Made by a program: the position numbers and the translations under genes. 64,000 nt of DNA from Burkholderia diffusa. Lineage in GTDB: Bacteria; Pseudomonadota; Gammaproteobacteria; Burkholderiales; Burkholderiaceae. The stretch spans positions 248,001 to 312,000 of the forward strand of contig NZ_CP013364.1 in NCBI RefSeq assembly GCF_001718315.1, read 5' to 3'. Below are positions 128 through 12,245 of the stretch, piece by piece. A model generated the notes under the pieces. The model did no database searches and was not told the origin of the DNA. It worked only from the letters and a program-made list of their open reading frames with translations. Position 1 is the stretch's first letter. Every line of letters begins with the position of its first letter.

Positions 128-313
128 TTACTTCACCCGCTTGCCGATCGCGCTCTTGGTCTTGTACGTGACGCCGTGTTTGTCGAGATACTCGCGGATC
201 AACTGACGCACGACTTGCGACGGTGTGAGATCCTGCTCCGCGCAGAGCATTTCGAACGCTTCTTTCTTGGCGGGATCGATCAGGACGGTCAGGCGGGCGG
301 TTTTCGTTTCCAT
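128..313 (-). CDS. Ribbon-helix-helix (CopG-like) DNA-binding protein, copy 1
   Basis: A 61-residue protein starting METKTARLTVLID, with the short strand plus two helices of an RHH fold (helix region SQVVRQLIREYL) and a basic tail. It is about 85% identical by eye to the protein at 9814-10011, which lies on the other strand at the far side of the membrane-complex module. The start at 313 is chosen because the homologue starts at the same residue; an upstream extension to 358 is open but would begin before the likely -10. RHH proteins of this kind usually repress their own promoter as dimers. No partner toxin gene is visible next to it. The function is inferred from fold only. Confidence 0.8.
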   Translation of the reverse strand: METKTARLTVLIDPAKKEAFEMLCAEQDLTPSQVVRQLIREYLDKHGVTYKTKSAIGKRVK

Positions 314-695: not shown

Positions 696-716
696 CATGA
701 TAACAAGATTATCATG
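696..716. promoter_or_regulatory. Palindromic operator CATGATAA-N5-TTATCATG, left copy
   Basis: Perfect inverted repeat with 8-bp arms and a 5-bp spacer (CAAGA), about 200 bp before the gene at 913. The same repeat with 7-bp arms and the same spacing lies at 8805-8823 between hyfB-like and DUF1275 genes. Two copies flanking one gene module point to a shared regulator. The spacing does not match Fur (GATAAT-N-ATTATC) or FNR sites. Confidence 0.6.
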
Positions 717-912
717 CTCTGTTGGTTGCATTGGGCTTTAAGTACAATATCGACCGGGCCTGCCGGCTCCGGTTTGCCCGAGTGGCTCCGTTGTCGTCCG
801 CGCGGCCGGGTGCTCGGCTGCTTCCGTTTCCACACGGCGCGTATGCACCGTCACTGCGGTGCTGCTGGTCGTCACTTCGCCGTTACTACATAGCCACCTC
901 GCTATTCGCCTC

Positions 913-1263
913 ATGACCCCGATCAAGTTCGTTCTCCGCTACACGGCGATTCCTTTCGCAGCCATCGTGGCCGTCGTGGTGTGGGCAGTCGCGCCGTCGT
1001 CGAAGGAGGTCGACGCGCGGCAATATGCGGCGCTGTCGCGCGGATACGCGAGCTTTCCGCTACCGTTTCGACATGAAATCTCGGAAGCGATGGAGCAGGG
1101 CCGGATCAGCGACCGGCGTTACCAGACGCTCGTGCGCGATTCGCTGGGTAACGGCGTGGCGCTGGATTGGCCCGCATCGGGCGTTGCCGACGTCGCTGCC
1201 GAGCGGCAAAGACTGGCCGAACTGCTGAAGGCCGATTCCGGCCTGGAGGAACATCAACAATGA
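913..1263 (+). CDS. Small membrane-anchored protein of unknown function
   Basis: A 116-residue protein with one N-terminal hydrophobic segment (about residues 8-25, FVLRYTAIPFAAIVAVVVWA) followed by a hydrophilic, helical, probably periplasmic part. The ATG at 913 is taken because an upstream in-frame start at 859 adds residues that do not look like a leader. Its stop overlaps the start of the DUF2909 gene (ATGA at 1260-1263), so the two are translationally coupled. I do not recognise the family. Confidence 0.65.
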   Translation: MTPIKFVLRYTAIPFAAIVAVVVWAVAPSSKEVDARQYAALSRGYASFPLPFRHEISEAMEQGRISDRRYQTLVRDSLGNGVALDWPASGVADVAAERQRLAELLKADSGLEEHQQ

Positions 1264-1472
1264 AGATTGCGCTGGTTTCGGTGGCTTTCGTGATGATTAT
1301 CGGAAGCCTGGTTTTCGCGCTGTATTTCATGAATCACGACCGGGGCGGCAGCAAGCGGATGGCGTGGTCGCTCGCGGCGCGCGTCGGGCTGTCGATCACG
1401 CTGTTTCTGTCGCTGCTGATCGCATACCGGCTCGGGTGGATCGAGCCGACGGGGCTGCCGATCGGGCGATGA
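1260..1472 (+). CDS. DUF2909 family twin-transmembrane protein
   Basis: A 70-residue protein with two hydrophobic helices (about 4-23 and 42-58) separated by a short loop containing GGSKRMAWSLAARVGL. This pattern and the end YRLGWI match DUF2909, a small inner-membrane family often found near cytochrome oxidase assembly genes. It overlaps the upstream gene by 4 bases. It converges on the small-subunit gene of the hydrogenase-like complex ending at 1543. The family assignment is by pattern; no function is established. Confidence 0.7.
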   Translation: MKIALVSVAFVMIIGSLVFALYFMNHDRGGSKRMAWSLAARVGLSITLFLSLLIAYRLGWIEPTGLPIGR

Positions 1473-1542: not shown

Positions 1543-2058
1543 TCAGTCTCCGCGTGATCGGCAAGCCGTCAAGATGCCGCGCAGCAGATCGATCGGCGGC
1601 GGCGGACATCCAGGAATGGTTACATCGACGGGCAGGACTGACGAAACAGGGCCGCACACGGCGTAGCTGTCGACAAACATACCGCCTGTGCACGCGCACT
1701 CGCCGGCTGCGACAACCAGCTTCGGCGCCGGCGTCGCCTCGTACGCGGCGAGCACGGCTGCCTTCATGTTCAGCGTGACCGGGCCGGTCACGAGCAGCAG
1801 GTCCGCATGGCGCGGGCTCGCGACGAATTTGATTCCGAGCCCTTCGATGTTGTAGTACGGGTTGTTCAGTGCATGAATCTCCAGTTCGCAGCCGTTGCAC
1901 GAACCGGCGTCGATCTGCCGGATGCACAACGCGCGGCCCAGGAGGTCGAGAATGTCCTGCCGAATCTGCAGTGCCTCATGTCGCCAGGTCGCTTCGGCGG
2001 TCGGCACGGGCTCGTCGGGAAAATCGGTGCGCGCGAATTGACGGATGAGTTGCCACAT
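1543..2058 (-). CDS. hyfI: Hydrogenase-4/complex I small subunit (HyfI/HycG/NuoB-like)
   Basis: 171 residues matching the 20-kDa iron-sulfur subunit of group 4 hydrogenases and complex I, which holds the [4Fe-4S] cluster nearest the large subunit. The expected ligands are visible: SCNGCE (C54, C57), GECACTGG (C121 or C123) and IPGCPPPP (C151). The cluster therefore looks intact although the partner large subunit has lost its metal site. It is the last gene of a six-gene minus-strand operon; its ATG overlaps the stop of the large-subunit gene by one base (TAATG), implying coupled translation. No ferredoxin-type subunit (HyfA or HyfH) accompanies it. Confidence 0.9.
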   Translation of the reverse strand: MWQLIRQFARTDFPDEPVPTAEATWRHEALQIRQDILDLLGRALCIRQIDAGSCNGCELEIHALNNPYYNIEGLGIKFVASPRHADLLLVTGPVTLNMKAAVLAAYEATPAPKLVVAAGECACTGGMFVDSYAVCGPVSSVLPVDVTIPGCPPPPIDLLRGILTACRSRGD

Positions 2059-3620
2059 TAGAGATCGTGCCCCGCGTAGTTCAGGTTGAACGATTTATTG
2101 ATCAGCGGGAAATCGGGAACGATGTTGCCGATAATCGCGTGCTCGAGCGCGGGCCAGTTCTGCCAGGACGGATCGTGGCAATGGCAGCGCGCGATGGCAT
2201 CGCCCGATGCCGTCTCGAGCGCGACGAATACGTCGCCGCGCCAGCCTTCCACCCAGCCGATTCCCCTGGATGGCGCCGCCGCGGGCGTGACGCCGATGGC
2301 GATCGGCCCTTCCGGAAGATTCGCCAGCAGCACGCCCATCAGACGCAGCGATTCGTCGATTTCGGCAAACCTCACGGCGACCCGCGCGGCGACGTCGCCG
2401 CGCGGGTCGCTAACCGCCTTGACGGCCAGGTCGCCGTAAGGGGCCGGTCGCAGGTTCGCGCGCACGTCGAACGTCTGGCCGCTGGCGCGGGCGGCCATGC
2501 CGCGCACGCCAAAATGTGCGACGACGTCGGCATTCAATCGGCCGGTGCCGAGAAACCGGTCCTGCAGCCCCGACTGGTCCTCGTAGATCTTCCGCATCAC
2601 GTGTACTTCGCGCGCGATGTGTTCGCACTGTTCGGTGAGGGCTGCCGCGTCGTCGGAACGAATGTCGACGGCTAGTCCGCCCGGCACGATCCGATCCATC
2701 AGGTATCGATGCCCGAAGATCCCGCCGTTGGTCCGAACCCAGTTCTCCTTGAGCCGCGAGAACTGCGCGAGACCGAACGCGAATCCGGCATCGTTGCCGA
2801 GCGCGCCGAGGTCGCCGAGGTGATTGGCGATGCGCTCGCGCTCGAGCAGGAGTGCGCGCAAGTACAGCGCACGCGCCGGCACCGCGGTGCCGCACGCCTG
2901 CTCGAGTGCCATGCAATAGGCCCACGAGAACGCGACGGTCGAATCGCCGGCGACCCGGCCCGCAACGCGATGGCCTTTCGACGCGGCCGTCCGTTCGAAC
3001 AGCCGTTCGATGCCGCGATGCACATAGCCGAGCCGCTCCTCGAGCCTCAGCACCTTCTCGCCGACAACCGAAAATCGGAAATGACCCGGCTCGATGATGC
3101 CGGCGTGAATCGGTCCGACCGCGATTTCGTGCACGCCGTCGCCGGCAACCTGCACGAACGGATAATCCGCTTCGTTCGATTCGAATCGCTCGGTTCCCGT
3201 TGCCCGCTTCTGCAGCGGAAAGTAGTCACCGGGCCAGTTGCCGTGATTGAGCCACGGGCGCATGTCGCGCGCGTCGCGCTCGCGCAGGCCGGTGAGGTCG
3301 AAAATTGCGCGCTGCATGCGCGTCGCAGCGGGAAACACGCCCGCGAGATCGGGATAGTCGCCGTCGGCGCGTGGTTGCGCCCCCGTCGCGAGACGCGCCC
3401 ACAGGACGCCGTCGTCGCATTCGTAAGCCGCGTTGACTGAAAATATGCGCTCGGGCGATTCACTGCCCCACATCGCAACGAGCCGGCTGCGCTCCATGCG
3501 CGCGGTATGCGCGATGTCGAGCCATCGCGCTTCGTCGACGTCAACCACGGTAGCCGAAACCTGGCCTGCCTCGCGCGGGAGGCGAGTCGAGCCGTTCGCC
3601 TGAATCAAGTCGAGTCGCAT
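2058..3620 (-). CDS. hyfG: Hydrogenase-4-like large subunit lacking NiFe ligands (HyfG/HycE-like)
   Basis: A 520-residue protein that joins a NuoC-like N-terminal third (about 1-170) to a NuoD/HycE-like large-subunit domain. In true group 4 hydrogenases two CxxC pairs bind NiFe (RVCGIC and DPCxxC). Here the first pair reads RVAGDS near residue 219 and the C-terminal pair reads DFPLIN, so all four cysteines are gone. This is the defining feature of energy-converting hydrogenase-related (Ehr) complexes. The protein cannot be a hydrogenase in the usual sense; the residual cavity might bind another substrate such as a quinone or may only be structural. It sits 3 bases after the hyfF-like gene. 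Confidence 0.88.
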   Translation of the reverse strand: MRLDLIQANGSTRLPREAGQVSATVVDVDEARWLDIAHTARMERSRLVAMWGSESPERIFSVNAAYECDDGVLWARLATGAQPRADGDYPDLAGVFPAATRMQRAIFDLTGLRERDARDMRPWLNHGNWPGDYFPLQKRATGTERFESNEADYPFVQVAGDGVHEIAVGPIHAGIIEPGHFRFSVVGEKVLRLEERLGYVHRGIERLFERTAASKGHRVAGRVAGDSTVAFSWAYCMALEQACGTAVPARALYLRALLLERERIANHLGDLGALGNDAGFAFGLAQFSRLKENWVRTNGGIFGHRYLMDRIVPGGLAVDIRSDDAAALTEQCEHIAREVHVMRKIYEDQSGLQDRFLGTGRLNADVVAHFGVRGMAARASGQTFDVRANLRPAPYGDLAVKAVSDPRGDVAARVAVRFAEIDESLRLMGVLLANLPEGPIAIGVTPAAAPSRGIGWVEGWRGDVFVALETASGDAIARCHCHDPSWQNWPALEHAIIGNIVPDFPLINKSFNLNYAGHDL

Positions 3621-3623
3621 CGC

Positions 3624-5087
3624 TTATCCTGCCAGCATCGTTGCAGCCTGGCGATACCACATCGCCAGATAAGGCGGCACGTACAGCCCCAGCATCAGGC
3701 CGAGCCCCAGATGCACGAACACCGGCAGCAGTGCCGGCCGGTGTTCGAGCGGCATCGCCGTCGTCGTTTCGCCGAATACCATCCGCTGCACGCGCGCGAA
3801 GATCGCCGCGAACGCGACGGCGAGACCGAGCAGCAGCAACGGCGCGGTCCACGGGAGCGCGTTCATCGCCGTCGTCAGGATCAGAAATTCGCTCGCGAAC
3901 ACGCCGAACGGTGGCAGCCCGAGAATTGCAAGCGCGCCGAGCATCAATGCCCAGCCGACCGTCGGGCTGACCTGCAGCAGCCCGCGAATGCCGTCGATCG
4001 CCTGCGTGCCGGCCTTCTGCGCGGCATGGCCGACCGCGAAGAAGATCGCCGACTTGACGAGGGAATGGACCGTCATGTGCAGCAACCCGGCGAACGTCGC
4101 GATCGGGCCGCCGAGCCCGAACGCGAATGTCATCAAGCCCATATGCTCGATCGACGAGTACGAGAACAGACGCTTCACGTCCTTCTGCCGGAACAGCGAG
4201 AACGACGCGATCAGGACAGACACGAGCCCGAACCCGACCAGCAATCGCCCCGGCAGGCCGTTGCCGAGCGCGCCGTCTGCCAGCACCTTGCAGCGCAGCA
4301 CCGCATACAGCGCGACGTTCAGCAGCAGGCCGGACAGCACCGCCGAAATCGGCGTCGGGCCTTCGGCGTGCGCATCCGGCAGCCAGCTGTGCATCGGCAC
4401 GAGGCCGACCTTGGTGCCGTAGCCGACCAGCAGAAACACGAAGGCGATCGACACGATCGTCGGATCGAGGTGCGTTCTGATCGCGGCCAGGCTCGTCCAC
4501 AGCAGCGCGTCGCCGTCGGTCAGTTGCCGGCTCGCGGCGAGATACAGCAGGATCGTGCCGAACAGCGCCTGGGCGATCCCGACGCCGCACAGGATGAAGT
4601 ACTTCCAGGCGGCTTCGAGGCTCGCGGCGGTGCGGTAAACGCTGACGAGCAACACGGTGGCGAGCGTCGCGGCTTCCATCGCGACCCACAGCACGCCGAC
4701 GTTGTCGGTCAGCAGCGCGAGCAGCATCGCGAACATGAAGAGCTGATACATGCTGTGATAGAGCCGCATGCGCGCGGCCGTCATCCGGCCGCGGGCTTCC
4801 TCGATCTGCATGTAGGGCCGGGAAAACAACGATGTCGTCCAGCCGACGAATGCCGTGAGCGCCACGAGATAGACATTCAGTGGATCGACGAAAAACGCGC
4901 GTCCGAATGCGAACGACGGACCGTGCTCGACGGTGCGCGCGGCAAGCACCAGTGTTGCCGCGAACGTCAGGAAGCTGAAACCGACGTTCAGATGGCGCGC
5001 GACCCGGCTCGGCCGCACGCAGGCAAGGCACGCCGCTCCCGCGAGCGGCAGGCCGAGCACGGCGAGCACGACGTGGGCGTCATTCAT
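3624..5087 (-). CDS. hyfF: Antiporter-like membrane subunit (HyfF/NuoN-like)
   Basis: 487 residues, about 14 hydrophobic segments, of the proton-conducting Mrp/NuoLMN family. The key charged residues are present: a Glu in the fifth helix region (WVAMEAATL), and the Lys/His of GTKVGLVPMHSWLPDAHAEG, followed by PTPISAVLSG. These are the residues thought to carry protons in complex I antiporter subunits, so the pump half of the complex appears functional. It overlaps the end of the hyfE-like gene by 8 bases. Confidence 0.88.
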   Translation of the reverse strand: MNDAHVVLAVLGLPLAGAACLACVRPSRVARHLNVGFSFLTFAATLVLAARTVEHGPSFAFGRAFFVDPLNVYLVALTAFVGWTTSLFSRPYMQIEEARGRMTAARMRLYHSMYQLFMFAMLLALLTDNVGVLWVAMEAATLATVLLVSVYRTAASLEAAWKYFILCGVGIAQALFGTILLYLAASRQLTDGDALLWTSLAAIRTHLDPTIVSIAFVFLLVGYGTKVGLVPMHSWLPDAHAEGPTPISAVLSGLLLNVALYAVLRCKVLADGALGNGLPGRLLVGFGLVSVLIASFSLFRQKDVKRLFSYSSIEHMGLMTFAFGLGGPIATFAGLLHMTVHSLVKSAIFFAVGHAAQKAGTQAIDGIRGLLQVSPTVGWALMLGALAILGLPPFGVFASEFLILTTAMNALPWTAPLLLLGLAVAFAAIFARVQRMVFGETTTAMPLEHRPALLPVFVHLGLGLMLGLYVPPYLAMWYRQAATMLAG

Positions 5088-5739
5088 CTTTGAGTTTCTC
5101 GAGGTGATGGATATCCAGGCTGTCGAACTGCTCGCGAATCTGGAACATGAACACGCCCAGGATCAGGATGCCGATCAGCACGTCGAGCCCGATGCCGAGC
5201 TCGACGATCATCGGCATGCCGTTGGTCGCGGCCGCCGCCGCGAAGAACAACCCGTTTTCCATCGACAGAAAGCCGATCACCTGCGGAATGGCCTTTGCGC
5301 GCGTGATCATCGCCATGAACGACAGGAGCACGCACGCGAGCGCAATGCCGAGCGTGCCGCGTGCGACCGATGTCGCGAGCTGGCTGATCGGCGCGGCGAC
5401 GTTGAACGCGACGATCACGAGGACGATGCCGATCAGCAGCGTGGTCGGAATATTGATGAGCGGCTCGACGTCGGTCTTGACGTCGAGCTTGCGAACGAGC
5501 CGATACAGGAACCACGGGATCACGCCGACCTTCAGCACAAGCGTCAGCCCGGCAGACACGTACAGGTGCACGTCGTCCGTGACGAAGCCCAGGATCAGGT
5601 TCGCCGACACGAGCGCAATACCCTGCAGCGTATAGAGATGGATCAGGGACAGGATCCTGCGCTGGCTCAGCATCGCGAACGACAGCATCAGCAGCACGGC
5701 CGCGAGGAAATTGATCAGTTGTGTCGCGTAGGCGTGCAT
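5080..5739 (-). CDS. hyfE: Small membrane subunit (HyfE-like)
   Basis: 219 residues, about six to seven hydrophobic helices, matching the HyfE family, whose C-terminal part resembles NuoK. Conserved features include the stretch GFLSMENGLFFAAA with a membrane Glu, typical of NuoK-type proton channels. The start ATG directly follows the stop of the hyfC-like gene (TGA at 5742-5740, ATG at 5739-5737). Confidence 0.85.
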   Translation of the reverse strand: MHAYATQLINFLAAVLLMLSFAMLSQRRILSLIHLYTLQGIALVSANLILGFVTDDVHLYVSAGLTLVLKVGVIPWFLYRLVRKLDVKTDVEPLINIPTTLLIGIVLVIVAFNVAAPISQLATSVARGTLGIALACVLLSFMAMITRAKAIPQVIGFLSMENGLFFAAAAATNGMPMIVELGIGLDVLIGILILGVFMFQIREQFDSLDIHHLEKLKDE

Positions 5740-6690
5740 TCATGCTCCCAGCAGCAGATGGACGAGCATGCCGATCACGGCGAGCAGGAAAGCCGTCGCC
5801 AGGAATTCAGGAACCCTGAAGATGCGCATCTTCGCATTGGCCGTTTCGACTACGGCGAGCGCGACGCCGCCTGCCGTCAGTTTGACGAAGAGCACCGGCA
5901 CGGCCAGCAGCAGCGCAACCGGATCGCCCGCATTCGCGATGCCCCACGGCACGAACAACGCGAGACCGATGCACGAATACGCGAACAGCTTGAGGCTTGC
6001 GGCCCACTCCATCAAGGCAAGGTGCCGTCCCGAATATTCGAGGATCAGCGCCTCGTGGATCATCGTGAGCTCGAGATGAGTGGTGGGATTGTCGACCGGC
6101 AGCCGCGCATTTTCGGCCAGTGCGACCAGCGTGAACGCGATGCCGGCAAACGCCAGGCTCGGATAGATCGTGAACTCGCCGCGGCCGAGTGTCGCGACGA
6201 TGCTTGTCAGCAGCGTCGACTGCGTAATCAGCGAGGCCGACAGGAGCACCATCAGCAGTGCCGGCTCCGCGAGGAAGCCGATCAGCATTTCGCGGCGGGC
6301 GCCGAGCGTGCCGAACGCCGTGCCGACGTCCATCGCCGCGAGCGACAGCGCGACGCGGGCGAGCGCAAACAGGCCGACGAGCGCGATTGCATCGGCGGCG
6401 GGCGACAGCGGCAACTCGGTCGACAGGGTGGGCACGATCGCGCACGCGAGCGTCATGGCGGCCCAGACGACATAGGGCGCGCCGCGGAACACAGGGCTCG
6501 CGCCATGCGCGATGACCGACTCCTTGTTGAACAGCTTGTGAAGCATCCGGTACGGTTGCCAGATGGACGGCGCACGCCGGTTCTGAAGCCAGGCGCGGCA
6601 TTGGTTGACCCAGCCCGTGAGCAATGGCGCGGCCGCGATCGCTATCACGATTTCGAGAGTCTGCGAGATGACGCCGGACAGGGTTACCAT
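5740..6690 (-). CDS. hyfC: Membrane anchor subunit (HyfC/NuoH-like)
   Basis: 316 residues with about eight membrane helices, of the respiratory-chain NADH dehydrogenase subunit 1 / HyfC family, which connects the hydrophilic arm to the membrane arm. Visible family motifs are WQPYRMLHKLFNKE near residue 45 and the acidic loop LPVDNPTTHLELTMIHEA. The start at 6690 overlaps the end of the hyfB-like gene by 7 bases; longer open frames upstream are merely out-of-frame readings of hyfB. Confidence 0.88.
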   Translation of the reverse strand: MVTLSGVISQTLEIVIAIAAAPLLTGWVNQCRAWLQNRRAPSIWQPYRMLHKLFNKESVIAHGASPVFRGAPYVVWAAMTLACAIVPTLSTELPLSPAADAIALVGLFALARVALSLAAMDVGTAFGTLGARREMLIGFLAEPALLMVLLSASLITQSTLLTSIVATLGRGEFTIYPSLAFAGIAFTLVALAENARLPVDNPTTHLELTMIHEALILEYSGRHLALMEWAASLKLFAYSCIGLALFVPWGIANAGDPVALLLAVPVLFVKLTAGGVALAVVETANAKMRIFRVPEFLATAFLLAVIGMLVHLLLGA

Positions 6691-8690
6691 CGTCTCACCA
6701 GCATCAGAAGCAGGATCAGCACGGCGAAACTGTATGTCAGGTAAACCGCGATCTTGCCTGTCTGCAGGCGGCCCGCCCAGTCGGCTGTACGTTGCGTCAG
6801 TGCAGCGATGCGCAAGTAGAGTGTTGACCAGGTGCGATCGGACACCGACACCCGGTATGCCGGCTGTGCGTCGAACGGCGACGGCAATTGCCGCTCGATG
6901 TGCAGCAGCGGTGCAAAGATTTCGCGGATCGGCTGCCCGAATCCTTCCGCCGTATCCTGCATTCGCGCGGTCGTGAACGGGAAGCCGCAGCCCCACGGCG
7001 CCGCGCGTCGCAGCCGGCCGTGATAAAAACGCCGCACGAGCACCCACGCGAGGCCGCAGCATGCGATGAAGAACAGCATGAAAGCCGCCGGCATGTAGCT
7101 CGCGCGCGCGGCAGACACGGGCGCGAACAGCAGCCAGCCGTGATTTTCCGCGCCGACGCCGGCGCCGACCAGCGTGTGCGTGACGCGATCCAGCAGCTTG
7201 ACGAACTGCGCCGGCATGAGCCCGAGCAGCACGCTGGCGGTCGCGAACCAACAGAACGCGAGCCGTTCCCACGTGTTCGCATCGCGTGCGCGGTTCAGCT
7301 TCGCTTCTCTCGGTTGCCCGAGGAACACGATGCCGAAGAACTTGACCATCGTGTAACCGGCCAGCGCGGCAGACATGGCAATCAGCGCGGCGGCGATCGG
7401 CACCGTCATCGCGAGCACCGAATCCGGCAAGCGTGGCGCGAACAGGAAACTCTGCAGCAACAGCCATTCGGCCGCGAAACCGCTGAGCGGCGGCAAGCCC
7501 GCGCTCGCCGCGACACCCACAAGCACCGCCCATGCGGTCCAGGGCATGAAGCGAATCAGTCCGCCGAGCTTGCCGAGGTTGCGCTCGCCGGTGGCGTGGA
7601 GCACGGCGCCGGTGCCCAGGAACAGCAGGCCCTTGAATGCCGCATGCGCGACGATCTGGTAGAGCATCGCGGTCAGTGCGAGCGCGGACAGGCTCGTCAT
7701 CCCGTATGCGCGAAACAGCACGGCGAGACCCAGCGCGACGATCATCAGGCCGACGTTGTCGATCGACGAATAGGCGAGCAGGCGCTTCATGTCGACCTGG
7801 ATGGTGCTGAACACCACGCCCAGCAGCGCGGTGCTGATGCCGAGCACGAGCAGTAGCACGCCCCACCACGCGATCTGCACGTGCAACAGGTCGAACAGGG
7901 TGCGCAGCAGGCCATACAGGCCGACTTTCAGCACGAATCCGCTGAGGAGCGCCGAGACCGGCGACGGTGCCGCGGGATGGGCCTCCGGCAGCCACACATG
8001 CAGCGGGAAGATGCCGGCTTTCGCGCCGAATCCGACGAGCGCGAACAGGAAGGCGAACGACGCGGAGAAGGTATCCAGCGACTGCGCCCGCAGGTTGGTG
8101 AAGGTGTAGTCGCCGGTGCGCGCCTGCAGAATGCCGAAGCAGAGGAGCAGCGCCAGCGCGCCCACGTGCGAGATCAGGAAATACAGATACCCCGCCCGGC
8201 GGATCTCTCCGATCCGGTGGTTGGTCATGACGAGAAATGTCGCGGACAGCGTCAGCGTCTCCCAGGCGACCATGAACACGTATGCGTCGTCAGCGATCAG
8301 CACCAGTGCGATGCTTGCGACGCAGGCGTGGTATTCGAAGCAGATCAGCCCGGGCGCGGATCCTTCACCCTTGCGGAAATAGCCGGCTGAAAAGGCGCCG
8401 ATCCCCGTGCTGACGATGCCGAGCACGAACAGGAAATAACCGGACAAGCGATCGAGGCGCAGATGAAAGGGCAGGCCGGGAAGCCCGATCGGCAGCACCG
8501 CCGCGGACGGATCGGCAAAGATGCCGGCGAGGCCCGCCGCGCCGGTGAGCAGTCCGACCAACGCGCCGAGCGGAAAGAGGCCGTGGGCCACCAGTCGCGT
8601 GCGACGCAGCGCCCCGAGCCCCAGCATGCCGACCGCGAGCCACGCGGCCACGGCCAGCAGGACGAAGTGGACGACCGGCACGGGTGCCAT
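6684..8690 (-). CDS. hyfB: Antiporter-like membrane subunit (HyfB/NuoL-like), first gene of the operon
   Basis: 668 residues, about 16 hydrophobic segments, of the NuoL/HyfB family. It has the membrane Glu (VAWETLTLS) and GAKAGIFPLHVWLPEAHPAA, the usual Lys/His channel motif, plus a long C-terminal part ending in a last helix. I use the ATG at 8690 because it carries a GGAG about 8 bases upstream and aligns with HyfB N-termini; an upstream TTG at 8801 would run through the operator region. It leads the order hyfB-C-E-F-G-I. hyfA, hyfD and hyfH equivalents are absent. Confidence 0.85.
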   Translation of the reverse strand: MAPVPVVHFVLLAVAAWLAVGMLGLGALRRTRLVAHGLFPLGALVGLLTGAAGLAGIFADPSAAVLPIGLPGLPFHLRLDRLSGYFLFVLGIVSTGIGAFSAGYFRKGEGSAPGLICFEYHACVASIALVLIADDAYVFMVAWETLTLSATFLVMTNHRIGEIRRAGYLYFLISHVGALALLLCFGILQARTGDYTFTNLRAQSLDTFSASFAFLFALVGFGAKAGIFPLHVWLPEAHPAAPSPVSALLSGFVLKVGLYGLLRTLFDLLHVQIAWWGVLLLVLGISTALLGVVFSTIQVDMKRLLAYSSIDNVGLMIVALGLAVLFRAYGMTSLSALALTAMLYQIVAHAAFKGLLFLGTGAVLHATGERNLGKLGGLIRFMPWTAWAVLVGVAASAGLPPLSGFAAEWLLLQSFLFAPRLPDSVLAMTVPIAAALIAMSAALAGYTMVKFFGIVFLGQPREAKLNRARDANTWERLAFCWFATASVLLGLMPAQFVKLLDRVTHTLVGAGVGAENHGWLLFAPVSAARASYMPAAFMLFFIACCGLAWVLVRRFYHGRLRRAAPWGCGFPFTTARMQDTAEGFGQPIREIFAPLLHIERQLPSPFDAQPAYRVSVSDRTWSTLYLRIAALTQRTADWAGRLQTGKIAVYLTYSFAVLILLLMLVRRW

Positions 8691-8804: not shown

Positions 8805-8823
8805 ATGATAATGCCGTTATCAT
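8805..8823. promoter_or_regulatory. Palindromic operator ATGATAA-N5-TTATCAT, right copy
   Basis: Perfect inverted repeat (arms 8805-8811 and 8817-8823) in the 246-bp divergent region between the hyf-like operon (minus) and the DUF1275 gene (plus). It matches the repeat at 696-716 in arms and spacing. The stretch GATAACAAG just beside it (8794-8802) also occurs inside the left copy. It is well placed to regulate both directions. Confidence 0.65.
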
Positions 8824-8936: not shown

Positions 8937-9704
8937 ATGCCAGCGCAGTACTTCCGAGGCCTGACGGGAAAACACCGTAGCGCGGCCGCGAACCGCCAGC
9001 TCGGGTTTTCGCTCGCCTTTGTGGCCGGCGCAACCAATGCCGGCGGTTTCCTCGCGGTCAAGCAATACACGTCCCACATGAGCGGGATCGTGTCGGCGAT
9101 TGCGGATCAAACGGCGCTTGGCGATATCCGGCTCGTGCTGGCCGGTGTTGGTTCGCTCGCGTCGTTTCTGGTGGGCGCCGGCTGCTCGGCCGTGCTCGTC
9201 AACTGGGGGCGGCGTCGCGGCCTGCAGAGTCAGTATGTGCTGCCGTTGCTGGTCGAAGCCGCGCTGCTGCTCCTGTTCGGGCTGCTCGGCAGCCATCTCG
9301 CGCTGTGGGAAGCGTTCTTCATGCCGGTCACGGTCATCTTGCTGTGCTTCATCATGGGGCTGCAAAACGCGATGATCACAAAGCTGTCGGGGGCGGAAAT
9401 CCGCACGACGCACATGACGGGCATCGTGACGGACCTCGGCATCGAGCTCGGCAAGCTCTTTTACTGGAATCGTTCAAATGCAGACGTGCACGCGCATGCA
9501 GTGATCGCGAACCGCGCGAAACTCAGGATTCACGGAACGATGCTGGCGTCGTTCTTCGTCGGGGGGCTGGCCGGCGCAATCGGCTTCAAGCATGTCGGCT
9601 ACGTGTCGACCGTGCCGCTTGCTGCGGCGCTCGTCACGCTGGCGATCGTGCCCGTTGTCGACGACGTGCTTGAATATCTCTATCGGCTTGACCGCAGGTC
9701 GTGA
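8937..9704 (+). CDS. DUF1275 (YoaK-like) membrane protein
   Basis: 255 residues with six or so hydrophobic segments and the family signatures AGATNAGGFLAVKQYTSHMS near residue 30 and FIMGLQNAMITK near residue 140. DUF1275 proteins are inner-membrane proteins of unproven transport function. The ATG at 8937 has GAGGGAAG upstream. It is divergent from the hyf-like operon and shares its operator region, so a link to that complex, for instance movement of its substrate or ion, is plausible but inferred. Confidence 0.8.
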   Translation: MPAQYFRGLTGKHRSAAANRQLGFSLAFVAGATNAGGFLAVKQYTSHMSGIVSAIADQTALGDIRLVLAGVGSLASFLVGAGCSAVLVNWGRRRGLQSQYVLPLLVEAALLLLFGLLGSHLALWEAFFMPVTVILLCFIMGLQNAMITKLSGAEIRTTHMTGIVTDLGIELGKLFYWNRSNADVHAHAVIANRAKLRIHGTMLASFFVGGLAGAIGFKHVGYVSTVPLAAALVTLAIVPVVDDVLEYLYRLDRRS

Positions 9705-9813: not shown

Positions 9814-10011
9814 ATGGAAACGAAAACCGCACGCTTGACCATCCTGATCGATCCCGCCAAGAAAGAAGCGTTCGACATGCTCTGCGCGGAGCAGGACCTG
9901 ACGCCGTCGCAAGTCGTGCGGCAGTTGATTCGCGAATATCTCGAGCAACATGGCGTGAGCTACAGGACGAAAAGCGCGCTGGGCAAGCGGGTGAAGCGAA
10001 GCGCGGGCTGA
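9814..10011 (+). CDS. Ribbon-helix-helix (CopG-like) DNA-binding protein, copy 2
   Basis: 65 residues, nearly the same as the protein at 128-313 (both start METKTARLT and share LTPSQVVRQLIREYL), with a slightly longer tail (KRSAG). It faces outward from the module in mirror orientation to copy 1. Each copy may regulate both RHH promoters because the promoter blocks are conserved. RHH dimers often recognise short palindromes, so these proteins are also candidates to bind the ATGATAA palindromes; that is a guess. Confidence 0.8.
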   Translation: METKTARLTILIDPAKKEAFDMLCAEQDLTPSQVVRQLIREYLEQHGVSYRTKSALGKRVKRSAG

Positions 10012-10024
10012 ATTCGCAAGCCGT

Positions 10025-10862
10025 CTAGACGTCGATTTCCCAGTGTGCATGCCCCTGCGCATGCCAGACCAACCGCCTCGGATCGAGGCGCTCTCCCTCC
10101 TTCATGCGCCGAGCGGTTGACGACAGCTTGAGTTCGCCGGCAAACGCGAACGAGAGCGCACGTTCGAACAGAACTCGCCTCGATGGCAAACGAAGCGGCC
10201 CTTTTCCAGGCGAAAGCAACGAAATTGCTGTCGTCGTCGCAGCGGACAATCGCATACGAAGGGCCGAACACGCAGCCCAGTCGCTCGATGTATGCGGGTA
10301 GCGACGGGTCGTCGTCAGCCAGATTGATCGCGAGCACTCCGGAACCGCTCAATCGCTCGCGACAGGCGGTAAAGAACGCGATATCCGCGCACCGGCTCAG
10401 CATGCCTTCCGCGACGAAGGCATCCAGCAGGATCACGTCGGTGTGGACAGCTTCGCGTGTCACGTACTCCGCGCCATCTGCACAGATCACCTTGAATCGA
10501 GTGTCGTCCGCGGGAATCCGGAACGTATCGCGCAATGCGATCACTTCCGGATTGATTTCGACCGCGTCGATGGTTACGCCGGGCAGATGCCGATAACAGT
10601 ACTTTGCCAGCGAGCCGCCCCCGAGCCCGATCATGCACATGTGTTCGGCGGCCGGGTGCAGCAGCAGACACCCCATCATGGTTCGCGTATAGCCGAGCGC
10701 CAGTTTGTCGGGTGTGCGCAGCGACATGAAGCTTTGGGTGGCCTGGTGATCGAAGTGCAGCGAGATTGCGTGATGCGTCGCCAAAACGTACGGTCGCCCG
10801 TCATGCAGCGGGGTCGACAGAAATTCGACGAACGCGTCGTAGGATGTTCGGTCATGCTCCAT
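10025..10862 (-). pseudogene. Spermidine synthase-like SAM-dependent enzyme, frameshifted near its 3' end
   Basis: The first about 220 residues read as a polyamine synthase/methyltransferase fold: GLGGGS for SAM binding, DAVEINPEV for the acidic strand end, and DVILLDAFVAEG. After NFVAFAWK the frame is lost; the matching C-terminus continues in the next frame as GPLRLPSRRVLFERALSF and ends with RRLVWHAQGHAHWEIDV. Removing one A from the AAAA run near 10200 restores one frame. It could be a real mutation or a sequence error. The start at 10862 (ATGGAGCATGAC) is the first sensible one. If intact it would be a soluble transferase; the substrate is unknown. Confidence 0.7.
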
Positions 10863-11398: not shown

Positions 11399-11412
11399 TT
11401 GATGCGCATCAA
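11399..11412. promoter_or_regulatory. FNR/ANR box TTGATGCGCATCAA
   Basis: A perfect palindromic FNR site between the phnA remnant (minus) and the gene at 11508 (plus). CTTATT at 11435-11440 lies at class II distance on the plus strand; a better -10 hexamer, TATAAT, is at 11448. The box runs straight into AATTATAAT; the 13 bases ATCAAATTATAAT also occur before RHH copy 1. Confidence 0.8.
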
Positions 11413-12231: not shown

Positions 12232-12245
12232 TTGACCATGATCAA
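12232..12245. promoter_or_regulatory. FNR/ANR box TTGACCATGATCAA inside a leader
   Basis: A full-quality FNR box ending only 15 bases before the ATG at 12261 and next to its GGAGG. At class II spacing the -10 would be GATAAC (12266-12271), inside the coding region, so it cannot drive the 12261 start in the normal way. It might block readthrough from upstream, or drive a shorter transcript. Confidence 0.6.

Follow-up and report, generated by a model that had tools for sequence, protein, structure and literature searches.

A Hydrogenase-4-Like Membrane Complex without NiFe Ligands in Burkholderia diffusa and Its Relation to the Hyq and Ehr Complexes

Introduction

The closest studied relatives of the membrane complex analysed here, which is encoded by the genes hyfB, -C, -E, -F, -G and -I in a 64,000-nucleotide stretch of the Burkholderia diffusa genome, are the Hyq "endo-hydrogenases" of alphaproteobacteria, the only relatives with genetics that were found. 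According to three papers (PMC2650096, PMC3357923, PMC2930871), hyq of Azorhizobium is a seven-gene hyqRBCEFGI operon, and its deletion alters diazotrophic growth and H2 release, with H2 evolution going up at 20 μM O2 and down below 1 μM; strains without the hup/hyp operon are reported there to recycle H2 still. Two of these papers (PMC2650096, PMC3357923) further state that both CxxC motifs of the large subunit HyqG are gone and that three cysteines are retained (Ac 258, 491 and 497; 2012), that a NiFe site in HyqG is uncertain, if not unlikely, and that R. leguminosarum bv. viciae is among the listed carriers of hyq orthologues. The same six genes as in B. diffusa have been described in Cupriavidus (PMC2864759) as resembling an incomplete hydrogenase-4 operon.

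The stretch under study, referred to as the window, comprises positions 248,001 to 312,000 of contig NZ_CP013364.1 (assembly GCF_001718315.1), the third of the three contigs that make up this genome of 6,857,833 bases. The analysis supports the view that the complex, as judged from its sequence, does not belong to the NiFe hydrogenases and is suitably labelled energy-converting hydrogenase-related (Ehr). The preferred explanation, with a probability of about 0.5, is that the six subunits form a redox-driven ion pump of the Hyq/Ehr kind, belonging to the complex I superfamily and acting on a substrate other than H2 or on an unusually held quinone.

Organization of the hyf Operon

The operon consists of six intact open reading frames in the order hyfB-C-E-F-G-I at 1543-8690, all on the minus strand, with subunit identities assigned by Pfam and NCBIfam profiles. 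The genes hyfB (6684..8690, 668 residues) and hyfF (3624..5087, 487 residues) encode antiporter-like membrane subunits, the former NuoL/M-like, which score 886.6 bits against the NCBIfam profile for hydrogenase 4 subunit B (cut-off 667) and 898.4 bits against that for subunit F (cut-off 543), respectively. The NuoH/HycD-like membrane anchor is encoded by hyfC (5740..6690, 316 residues; PF00146, E 1.4e-32) and a NuoK-like membrane subunit by hyfE (5080..5739, 219 residues; NCBIfam hydrogenase 4 membrane subunit E, E 1.3e-29, under the cut-off). The soluble arm comprises a NuoCD-like large subunit without NiFe ligands, encoded by hyfG (2058..3620, 520 residues), and a small subunit of the NuoB/HycG type that carries one [4Fe-4S] site and lacks the C-terminal extension of HycG/HyfI, encoded by hyfI (1543..2058, 171 residues; PF01058, E 1.9e-30). 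Genes B and C overlap by 7 nt, C and E abut, E and F overlap by 8 nt, F and G are separated by 3 nt, and G and I overlap by 1 nt. This spacing is consistent with translational coupling, in agreement with the initial annotation, which had described the six genes as ordered and coupled.

No HyfA or HyfH genes are present within the operon, as the initial annotation had noted for the ferredoxin subunits. When all six frames of the 64 kb were scanned for CxxCxxCxxxC, a single match was obtained (37733), which is out of frame with the gene called there. Among named plasmids, a 744 kb B. multivorans replicon comes nearest to the first 25 kb of the window (90.4% over 42%), the records nearest to the source genome having possibly been excluded from that comparison.

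Active Site of HyfG

In an alignment with E. coli HycE, all four NiFe-ligand columns of HyfG are occupied by other residues: C241, C244, C531 and C534 of HycE correspond to A224, S227, N514 and G517. The initial annotation had recognized that all four cysteines are replaced, but its choice of DFPLIN as the second ligand motif requires correction. DFPLIN (residues 503-508) aligns with DAPLII of HycE, and the ligand motif DPCYSC aligns with NLNYAG (residues 512-517). The conclusion of ligand loss is unchanged. On the minus strand, the N-terminal motif RVAGDS (residues 222-227; 2940..2957) stands in place of RVCGIC, with the column of D226 occupied by Ile in five of five hydrogenases, and the C-terminal motif DFPLINKSFNLNYAGHDL (residues 503-520; 2061..2114) stands in place of DAPLIIGSLDPCYSCTDR.

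The large subunits of group 4 [NiFe] hydrogenases carry a C-terminal extension that is removed on maturation. HyfG does not have this extension, as it ends at ...NYAGHDL, where HycE runs on into its C-terminal tail. A search for HypD, which is positive in 4 of 14 well-known control genomes including E. coli, gave no match in the B. diffusa genome, in which the only other PF00346 match is a NuoD-like protein. The replaced ligands, the lacking C-terminal tail and the absence of HypD from the genome rule out a classical NiFe enzyme at the level of sequence; the replaced ligand columns and the absence of HypD likewise led to the rejection of an active NiFe hydrogenase as a candidate.

Among 131 aligned proteins, cysteines at all four ligand columns occur in five, all of them reference hydrogenases. 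Exclusion of these five, of the genome's own NuoD and of one long-branch protein (from locus L125) leaves a family set of 124 members, of which ten have a single cysteine at one ligand column and none has two. D226, N508, K509, F504 and G517 are present in 124 of 124 members and differ from the residues of all five hydrogenases. The formate hydrogenlyase structure paper (PMC9474812) identifies the catalytic proton residues of that enzyme and describes the canopy aspartate, Asp529 of HycE, as strictly conserved across hydrogenases and complex I. In the family the canopy column is Asn in 121 of 124 members, while the proton residues are kept in 123-124 of 124, i.e., the loop glutamate (E193 in HycE, E177 in HyfG) and the wire residues H284, R395, E437 and R478, which correspond to H267, R378, E420 and R461. 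The pattern of residues indicates that the pocket is remade rather than empty. In some Paraburkholderia hyfG genes (loci L029, L032, L040, L042 and L050) the third ligand column is Cys (SFNLCYAG). An AlphaFold model of HyfG alone has a pTM of 0.89 and a mean pLDDT of 83.5; residues 151-166, 178-201 and 504-520, which form part of the pocket, are below a pLDDT of 50, and the model thus says nothing on the occupant of the site.

These columns also bear on another candidate, a quinone-linked dehydrogenase that would use a soluble donor to reduce ubiquinone at the HyfC/HyfG/HyfI cavity, in the manner of a minimal complex I. The column that holds the quinone His in complex I has Ile (Ile176) in 124 of 124 members, and that of the quinone Tyr has Gly (Gly225) in 123 of 124. 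Together with the Asn at the canopy position, a rebuilt ND1 loop (see below) and the lack of NuoI, NuoE, NuoF and NuoG in the operon, this makes such an enzyme unlikely, though it retains an appreciable minor chance.

With dN/dS values of 0.18-0.27 against six relatives, hyfG is under purifying selection. These values, together with the conservation of the motifs across 124 homologues, indicate that the altered motifs are more than chance. Decay of a hydrogenase-4 operon would account for the missing subunits A, D, H, J and R, and it agrees with the incomplete-operon wording for Cupriavidus cited above. It is at odds with six genes that are intact and identically ordered in alpha- and betaproteobacterial records, with the low dN/dS and with the appearance of new invariant residues instead of drift. 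Operon decay is largely refuted by the intact genes, the conservation and the hyfG dN/dS, and has hardly any chance of being correct.

Family Placement

The relatives are the 120 that rank highest among 8000 scored proteins, and the loci are the best 80 of 568 confirmed; the closest relatives among the matches listed are from Burkholderia and its kin. Non-pathogenic carriers of the complex include Paraburkholderia xenovorans LB400 (loci L027 and L045) and, as reported in PMC2864759, Cupriavidus metallidurans CH34. In a maximum-likelihood tree of 51 proteins, some with long branches flagged by the program, all ligand-less proteins except NuoD lie on one side of a branch with 100/99 support that separates them from Hyc/Hyf. 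Ech, an Mbh-like protein and NuoD are located outside both, and the source HyfG falls inside a betaproteobacterial group. The initial annotation had held that grouping with active hydrogenases would count against it; the tree sets HyfG apart from Hyc/Hyf. After removal of six long rows, a tree that joins the source-HyfG group with Hyc/Hyf has a p-AU of 0.025, which is moderate evidence against this grouping, as it was defined once the first tree had been seen.

The clade of HyfG also includes the alphaproteobacterial Hyq proteins, which form a sister branch in the tree. The representative protein of Hyq, encoded on pRL11 of Rhizobium johnstonii (leguminosarum) 3841 (locus L120), has 504 residues with cysteines at positions 259, 491 and 497. 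The three HyqG cysteine columns hold Cys in 12 of 12 Hyq members (nine placed by the tree and three by similarity, with their tails seen beforehand; five from Rhizobium/Azospirillum records) and in none of 91 betaproteobacterial members (25 of them in the tree), including the source HyfG. The cysteines singled out in Hyq are thus missing in the source protein. A third group of 15 members keeps two of the three columns. Matches to the HyqR of L120 were found in 0 of 80 betaproteobacterial loci and in 4 of 28 alphaproteobacterial and other loci, many of which are short.

A close relative of the complex is present in 64 of 250 genomes of the order, i.e., 65 at E ≤ 1e-40 minus G568 (31% identity), which was dropped as Hyc-like, with the ligand columns unchecked genome by genome. 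HypD is found in 39 of the 64 carriers and not in 25, NifD in 25 and not in 39, and neither in 20; some of the 250 genomes are incomplete, which renders these absences soft. As 25 carriers are without HypD, 39 without NifD and 20 without both, nickel maturation and nitrogen fixation are not required by the complex. In the B. diffusa genome itself NifD has no match at E ≤ 1e-50, and for the NifH family there are five weak partial matches only, with a best E of 5.3e-7.

If the complex worked as a Hyq endo-hydrogenase, it would be an H2:quinone oxidoreductase without classical NiFe ligands, as proposed for Azorhizobium. The identical set of six subunits, the sister position in the tree, the H2 phenotypes and retained H2 recycling given in the Azorhizobium papers, and the co-occurrence of the complex with NifD and HypD in the order are in line with such an activity. 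However, the three HyqG cysteines are confined to the Hyq side of this comparison, the canopy Asp that is implicated in H2 chemistry is Asn, and the source genome has neither HypD nor NifD, so that there is no nitrogenase H2 to recycle. In addition, the Azorhizobium authors themselves doubt a NiFe site. An endo-hydrogenase in B. diffusa is considered quite improbable.

The assignment to the Ehr class in the initial annotation holds as far as the label is concerned, which fits the ligand columns, the trees, the absence of HypD and the published wording, but the annotation did not name the Hyq operons, which are the closest studied relatives. Two further types of complex were observed among the loci. 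A second, very divergent complex from this superfamily occurs on Burkholderia plasmids (L125:6483-13899 and L083:45928-48932) beside DUF190, inorganic diphosphatase and dynamin-like genes, with the order C, E, F, G, I, B and ligand columns SDTG in L125. A third type is found in Variovorax and Ramlibacter (L087:20469-27004 and L072 around 123-2959), near the first type and with ligand columns VSSG; the Variovorax operon of this type includes a gene for a 4Fe-4S protein.

Membrane and Small Subunits

The channel residues of the antiporter-like subunits, which had been read as intact at the outset, are indeed present: E144, K224, K255 and E408 in HyfB, and E138, K226 and E400 in HyfF. In the E-channel of HyfC, R112, E134, E142, E193, E207 and E213 are kept. 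Relative to HycD, HyfC shows the loop changes E199 to T203 and E201 to H205, as well as Y102 to G106. The loop PVDNPTTHLELTMIHEA (6049..6099, minus strand) replaces the E-channel loop PFDLAEAEQELQEG of HycD, such that a THLELTM form takes the place of the EAEQEL form found in E. coli HyfC, HycD and NuoH. Of 80 related loci, 73 have the THLELTM form, and the remaining seven matched neither form. An alignment of six HyfI/NuoB-type proteins shows that the four cluster cysteines of HyfI (CxxC, C, C) are kept, in agreement with the earlier statement of intact cluster cysteines. The [4Fe-4S] site that they form is the only iron-sulphur site recognized across the six subunits.

The single cluster site and the absence of a ferredoxin subunit would suit a redox-silent, conformationally gated H+/Na+ antiporter, in which the soluble arm is retained as a lid or sensor. 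The slower evolution of hyfF and hyfB, with dN/dS values of 0.03 and 0.08 against one relative compared with 0.22 for hyfG, points in the same direction. The cluster cysteines in the six aligned proteins and the proton wire in the 124 family members, both of which would be superfluous for a lid, argue against it, and this antiporter too is given little credence.

Palindrome and RHH_9 Proteins

A palindrome, TGATAA-N5-TTATCA, lies between hyfB and a DUF1275 gene at 8806..8822, about 130 nt upstream of hyfB, and a second copy is located at 698..714, upstream of 859-1472. These are the only two copies in the genome (the backward control gives 0), and they flank the hyf locus. Among the 81 loci (out of 85) in which hyfB could be placed, 26 have the shorter form GATAA-N5-TTATC in the 300 nt upstream of hyfB; it also precedes hyfB in 22 of 28 loci picked for closer inspection, in 18 of these at about 120-135 nt. 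Across 80 loci 46 copies of it were counted, whereas 19 alternative arms composed of the same letters give 0 or 1 copy each. With the spacing varied in 85 loci, 52 copies have N5, and spacings of 3, 4, 6, 7 and 8 give 0, 0, 5, 0 and 0 copies. The expression of hyf is probably set by this dedicated, operator-like palindrome.

The only two RHH_9 ribbon-helix-helix proteins of the genome are nearly identical and are encoded at either end of the hyf locus, one at 128..313 on the minus strand (longer start at 358; PF19839, E 3.2e-22) and its paralogue at 9814..10011 on the plus strand (PF19839, E 8.7e-22). Both are candidate regulators. An RHH_9 gene is present in 26 of 35 loci with the palindrome versus 16 of 45 others (p 0.0007, kinship ignored), an association which suggests that RHH_9 perhaps reads the palindrome.

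Neighbouring Genes and Low-Oxygen Setting

Beyond the second palindrome copy, on the plus strand, lie a gene for a small hypothetical protein (859..1263), which has the palindrome upstream, has a homologue in 17 of 45 loci and possibly belongs to the same regulon, and a gene for a DUF2909 small membrane protein (1260..1472; PF11137, E 9e-19; 13 of 45 loci). At the other end, a YoaK-like DUF1275 protein is encoded at 8937..9704 on the plus strand, divergent from hyfB across the palindrome (PF06912, E 1e-39), and a spermidine-synthase-like protein at 9960-10862 on the minus strand (PF01564, E 3.4e-6). The 45 loci L003-L046 and L050 come from Burkholderia, Paraburkholderia and their near relatives; a spermidine-synthase-like gene is near the complex in 29 of them, an RHH gene in 33, a DUF1275 gene in 28 and a small hypothetical gene in 31. 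For the first three, the corresponding counts in the 35 other betaproteobacterial loci are 6, 9 and 5. Gene calls in the window were made with a simple codon-bias script, and automatic clustering of neighbours contained many wrong-frame reading frames and served as a lead only.

The rest of the window contains Usp, BON, CBS, Hsp20, PPDK and CRP/FNR-type genes; by description only, several of these kinds match kinds named for the published lxa locus (PMC6127331). FNR/ANR-like boxes number 10 in the window compared with 0.79 expected, at 11399-11412 and 12232-12245 and at eight sites from 32297 to 62178, those at 11399 and 44260 being perfect. No FNR-like box is present in the source hyfB promoter. 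An FNR box driving hyfB was rejected as a candidate, as in 81 loci the best upstream match has at least three mismatches in 69, two in 10 and one in two (L048 and L062). The low-oxygen setting that had been suggested for the complex is plausible in view of the Usp, BON, Hsp20, CBS and CRP/FNR-type genes and the boxes, but the hyfB promoter has a different palindrome and no such box.

Proposed Function

In the proposed redox-driven pump, a soluble low-potential carrier would dock at the position of HyfH and exchange electrons through the HyfI cluster with an acceptor or donor in the pocket, which may be a small molecule other than H2 or a quinone held unusually. The pocket would be formed by D226, N508, K509, N512 and G517 with the proton wire E177, H267, R378, E420 and R461, and its protonation could drive translocation of protons or, alternatively, sodium via HyfC, HyfB and HyfF, the coupling to either ion being inferred from the residues kept in these subunits. 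Such a pump might help an aerobe to keep its membrane charged at low oxygen, with its expression probably under control of the operator, which is perhaps read by the flanking RHH_9 proteins.

Several observations weigh against this explanation. Over the 250 genomes, with kinship ignored, the complex is positively associated with HypD (odds ratio 5.9) and NifD (8.5), so that a connection with H2 or N2 metabolism remains conceivable. Of three glutamates in the HycD E-channel loop that were jointly tested by mutation, two are replaced here, by T203 and H205, and the coupling could consequently be altered or lost. For the regulatory part, the site is missing in 16 of 42 RHH_9 loci, and the available stretch of 9 of 35 loci with the site has no RHH_9 gene. 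Outside the main group, each of the neighbours sought occurs in at most 9 of 35 betaproteobacterial loci, and the context names no partner. In five of nine such loci that were inspected the operon is beside housekeeping genes, which are presumably metG, scpA, nadB or panC-like; the surroundings of the other four are mixed and in two cases include a second complex. An electron-transfer partner from the neighbouring genes was rejected on this basis. No substrate, electron carrier or ion emerged from the analysis. Nor was any account of the expression of these genes found in the low-oxygen papers PMC3966863, PMC3759415, PMC9104464, PMC5934665 and PMC6127331, whose main texts have 0 occurrences of hydrogenase terms.

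A more far-reaching proposal is that, by its catalysis, the Hyq/Ehr clade constitutes a third class within the complex I superfamily, with the betaproteobacterial branch as its clearest case. This class would be defined by the pocket R222-x-[AS]-G-D226, N508-K509-S-F-N512 and G517 with the wire, by proton-coupled redox chemistry with neither H2/NiFe nor a classical quinone, by a single cluster without ferredoxin subunit and, in Burkholderia, by its own two-site operator and RHH_9 regulator. The proposal is tentative, and is considered somewhat more prone to fail than to hold.

The names shown among the 120 highest-ranking relatives are all hydrogenase, formate hydrogenlyase or NADH-quinone oxidoreductase, and despite such names the key residues of both kinds of enzyme are gone in the 124 aligned members. 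The comparison also ties together two literatures, as among the papers searched for both names the three on Hyq do not contain the term Ehr, nor the four on Ehr the term Hyq; an unrelated-looking dataset paper (PMC6950771) has each word once. The two branches lend themselves to a natural experiment. Should Hyq indeed handle H2 without NiFe, the cysteines missing in the betaproteobacterial branch may matter; otherwise, both branches may share one substrate. The residues for mutation and an operator for testing are supplied by the present analysis.

Comparison with Known Systems

The source complex shares its homologous core (NuoB, CD, H, K and L/M), the proton wire and the channel residues with respiratory complex I. 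Unlike complex I, it has no quinone His or Tyr, no N-module and no NuoI, and its HyfI carries the hydrogenase-type CxxC cluster motif in place of the adjacent Cys-Cys of complex I. Formate hydrogenlyase and hydrogenase-4 (HycE and HyfG; PDB entry 7z0s) provide the closest solved structure and have the order B, C, E, F, G, I in common with it. The differences from these enzymes comprise the lack of NiFe ligands, of the HyfG tail and of HyfA, D, H and J, the change of the canopy Asp to Asn, the rebuilt E-channel loop and a genome without HypD. Ehr is a broad label, to which the source complex is likened by published description; the description covers group-4-like subunits, antiporter-like proteins and the absence of NiFe ligand motifs.

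The most extensive similarity is to Hyq, for which L120 was used as the representative. The six subunits and their gene order are identical in the two, A, D and H being absent from both; further shared features are a large subunit devoid of CxxC motifs, the clade, the motifs RxSGDS and DFPLxNKSFN, and the THLELTM loop of subunit C. In contrast to Hyq, the source complex is without the three HyqG cysteines (Rl C259, C491 and C497), no HyqR was found with it and its genome is without nitrogenase, and it has its own palindrome and RHH_9 genes alongside.

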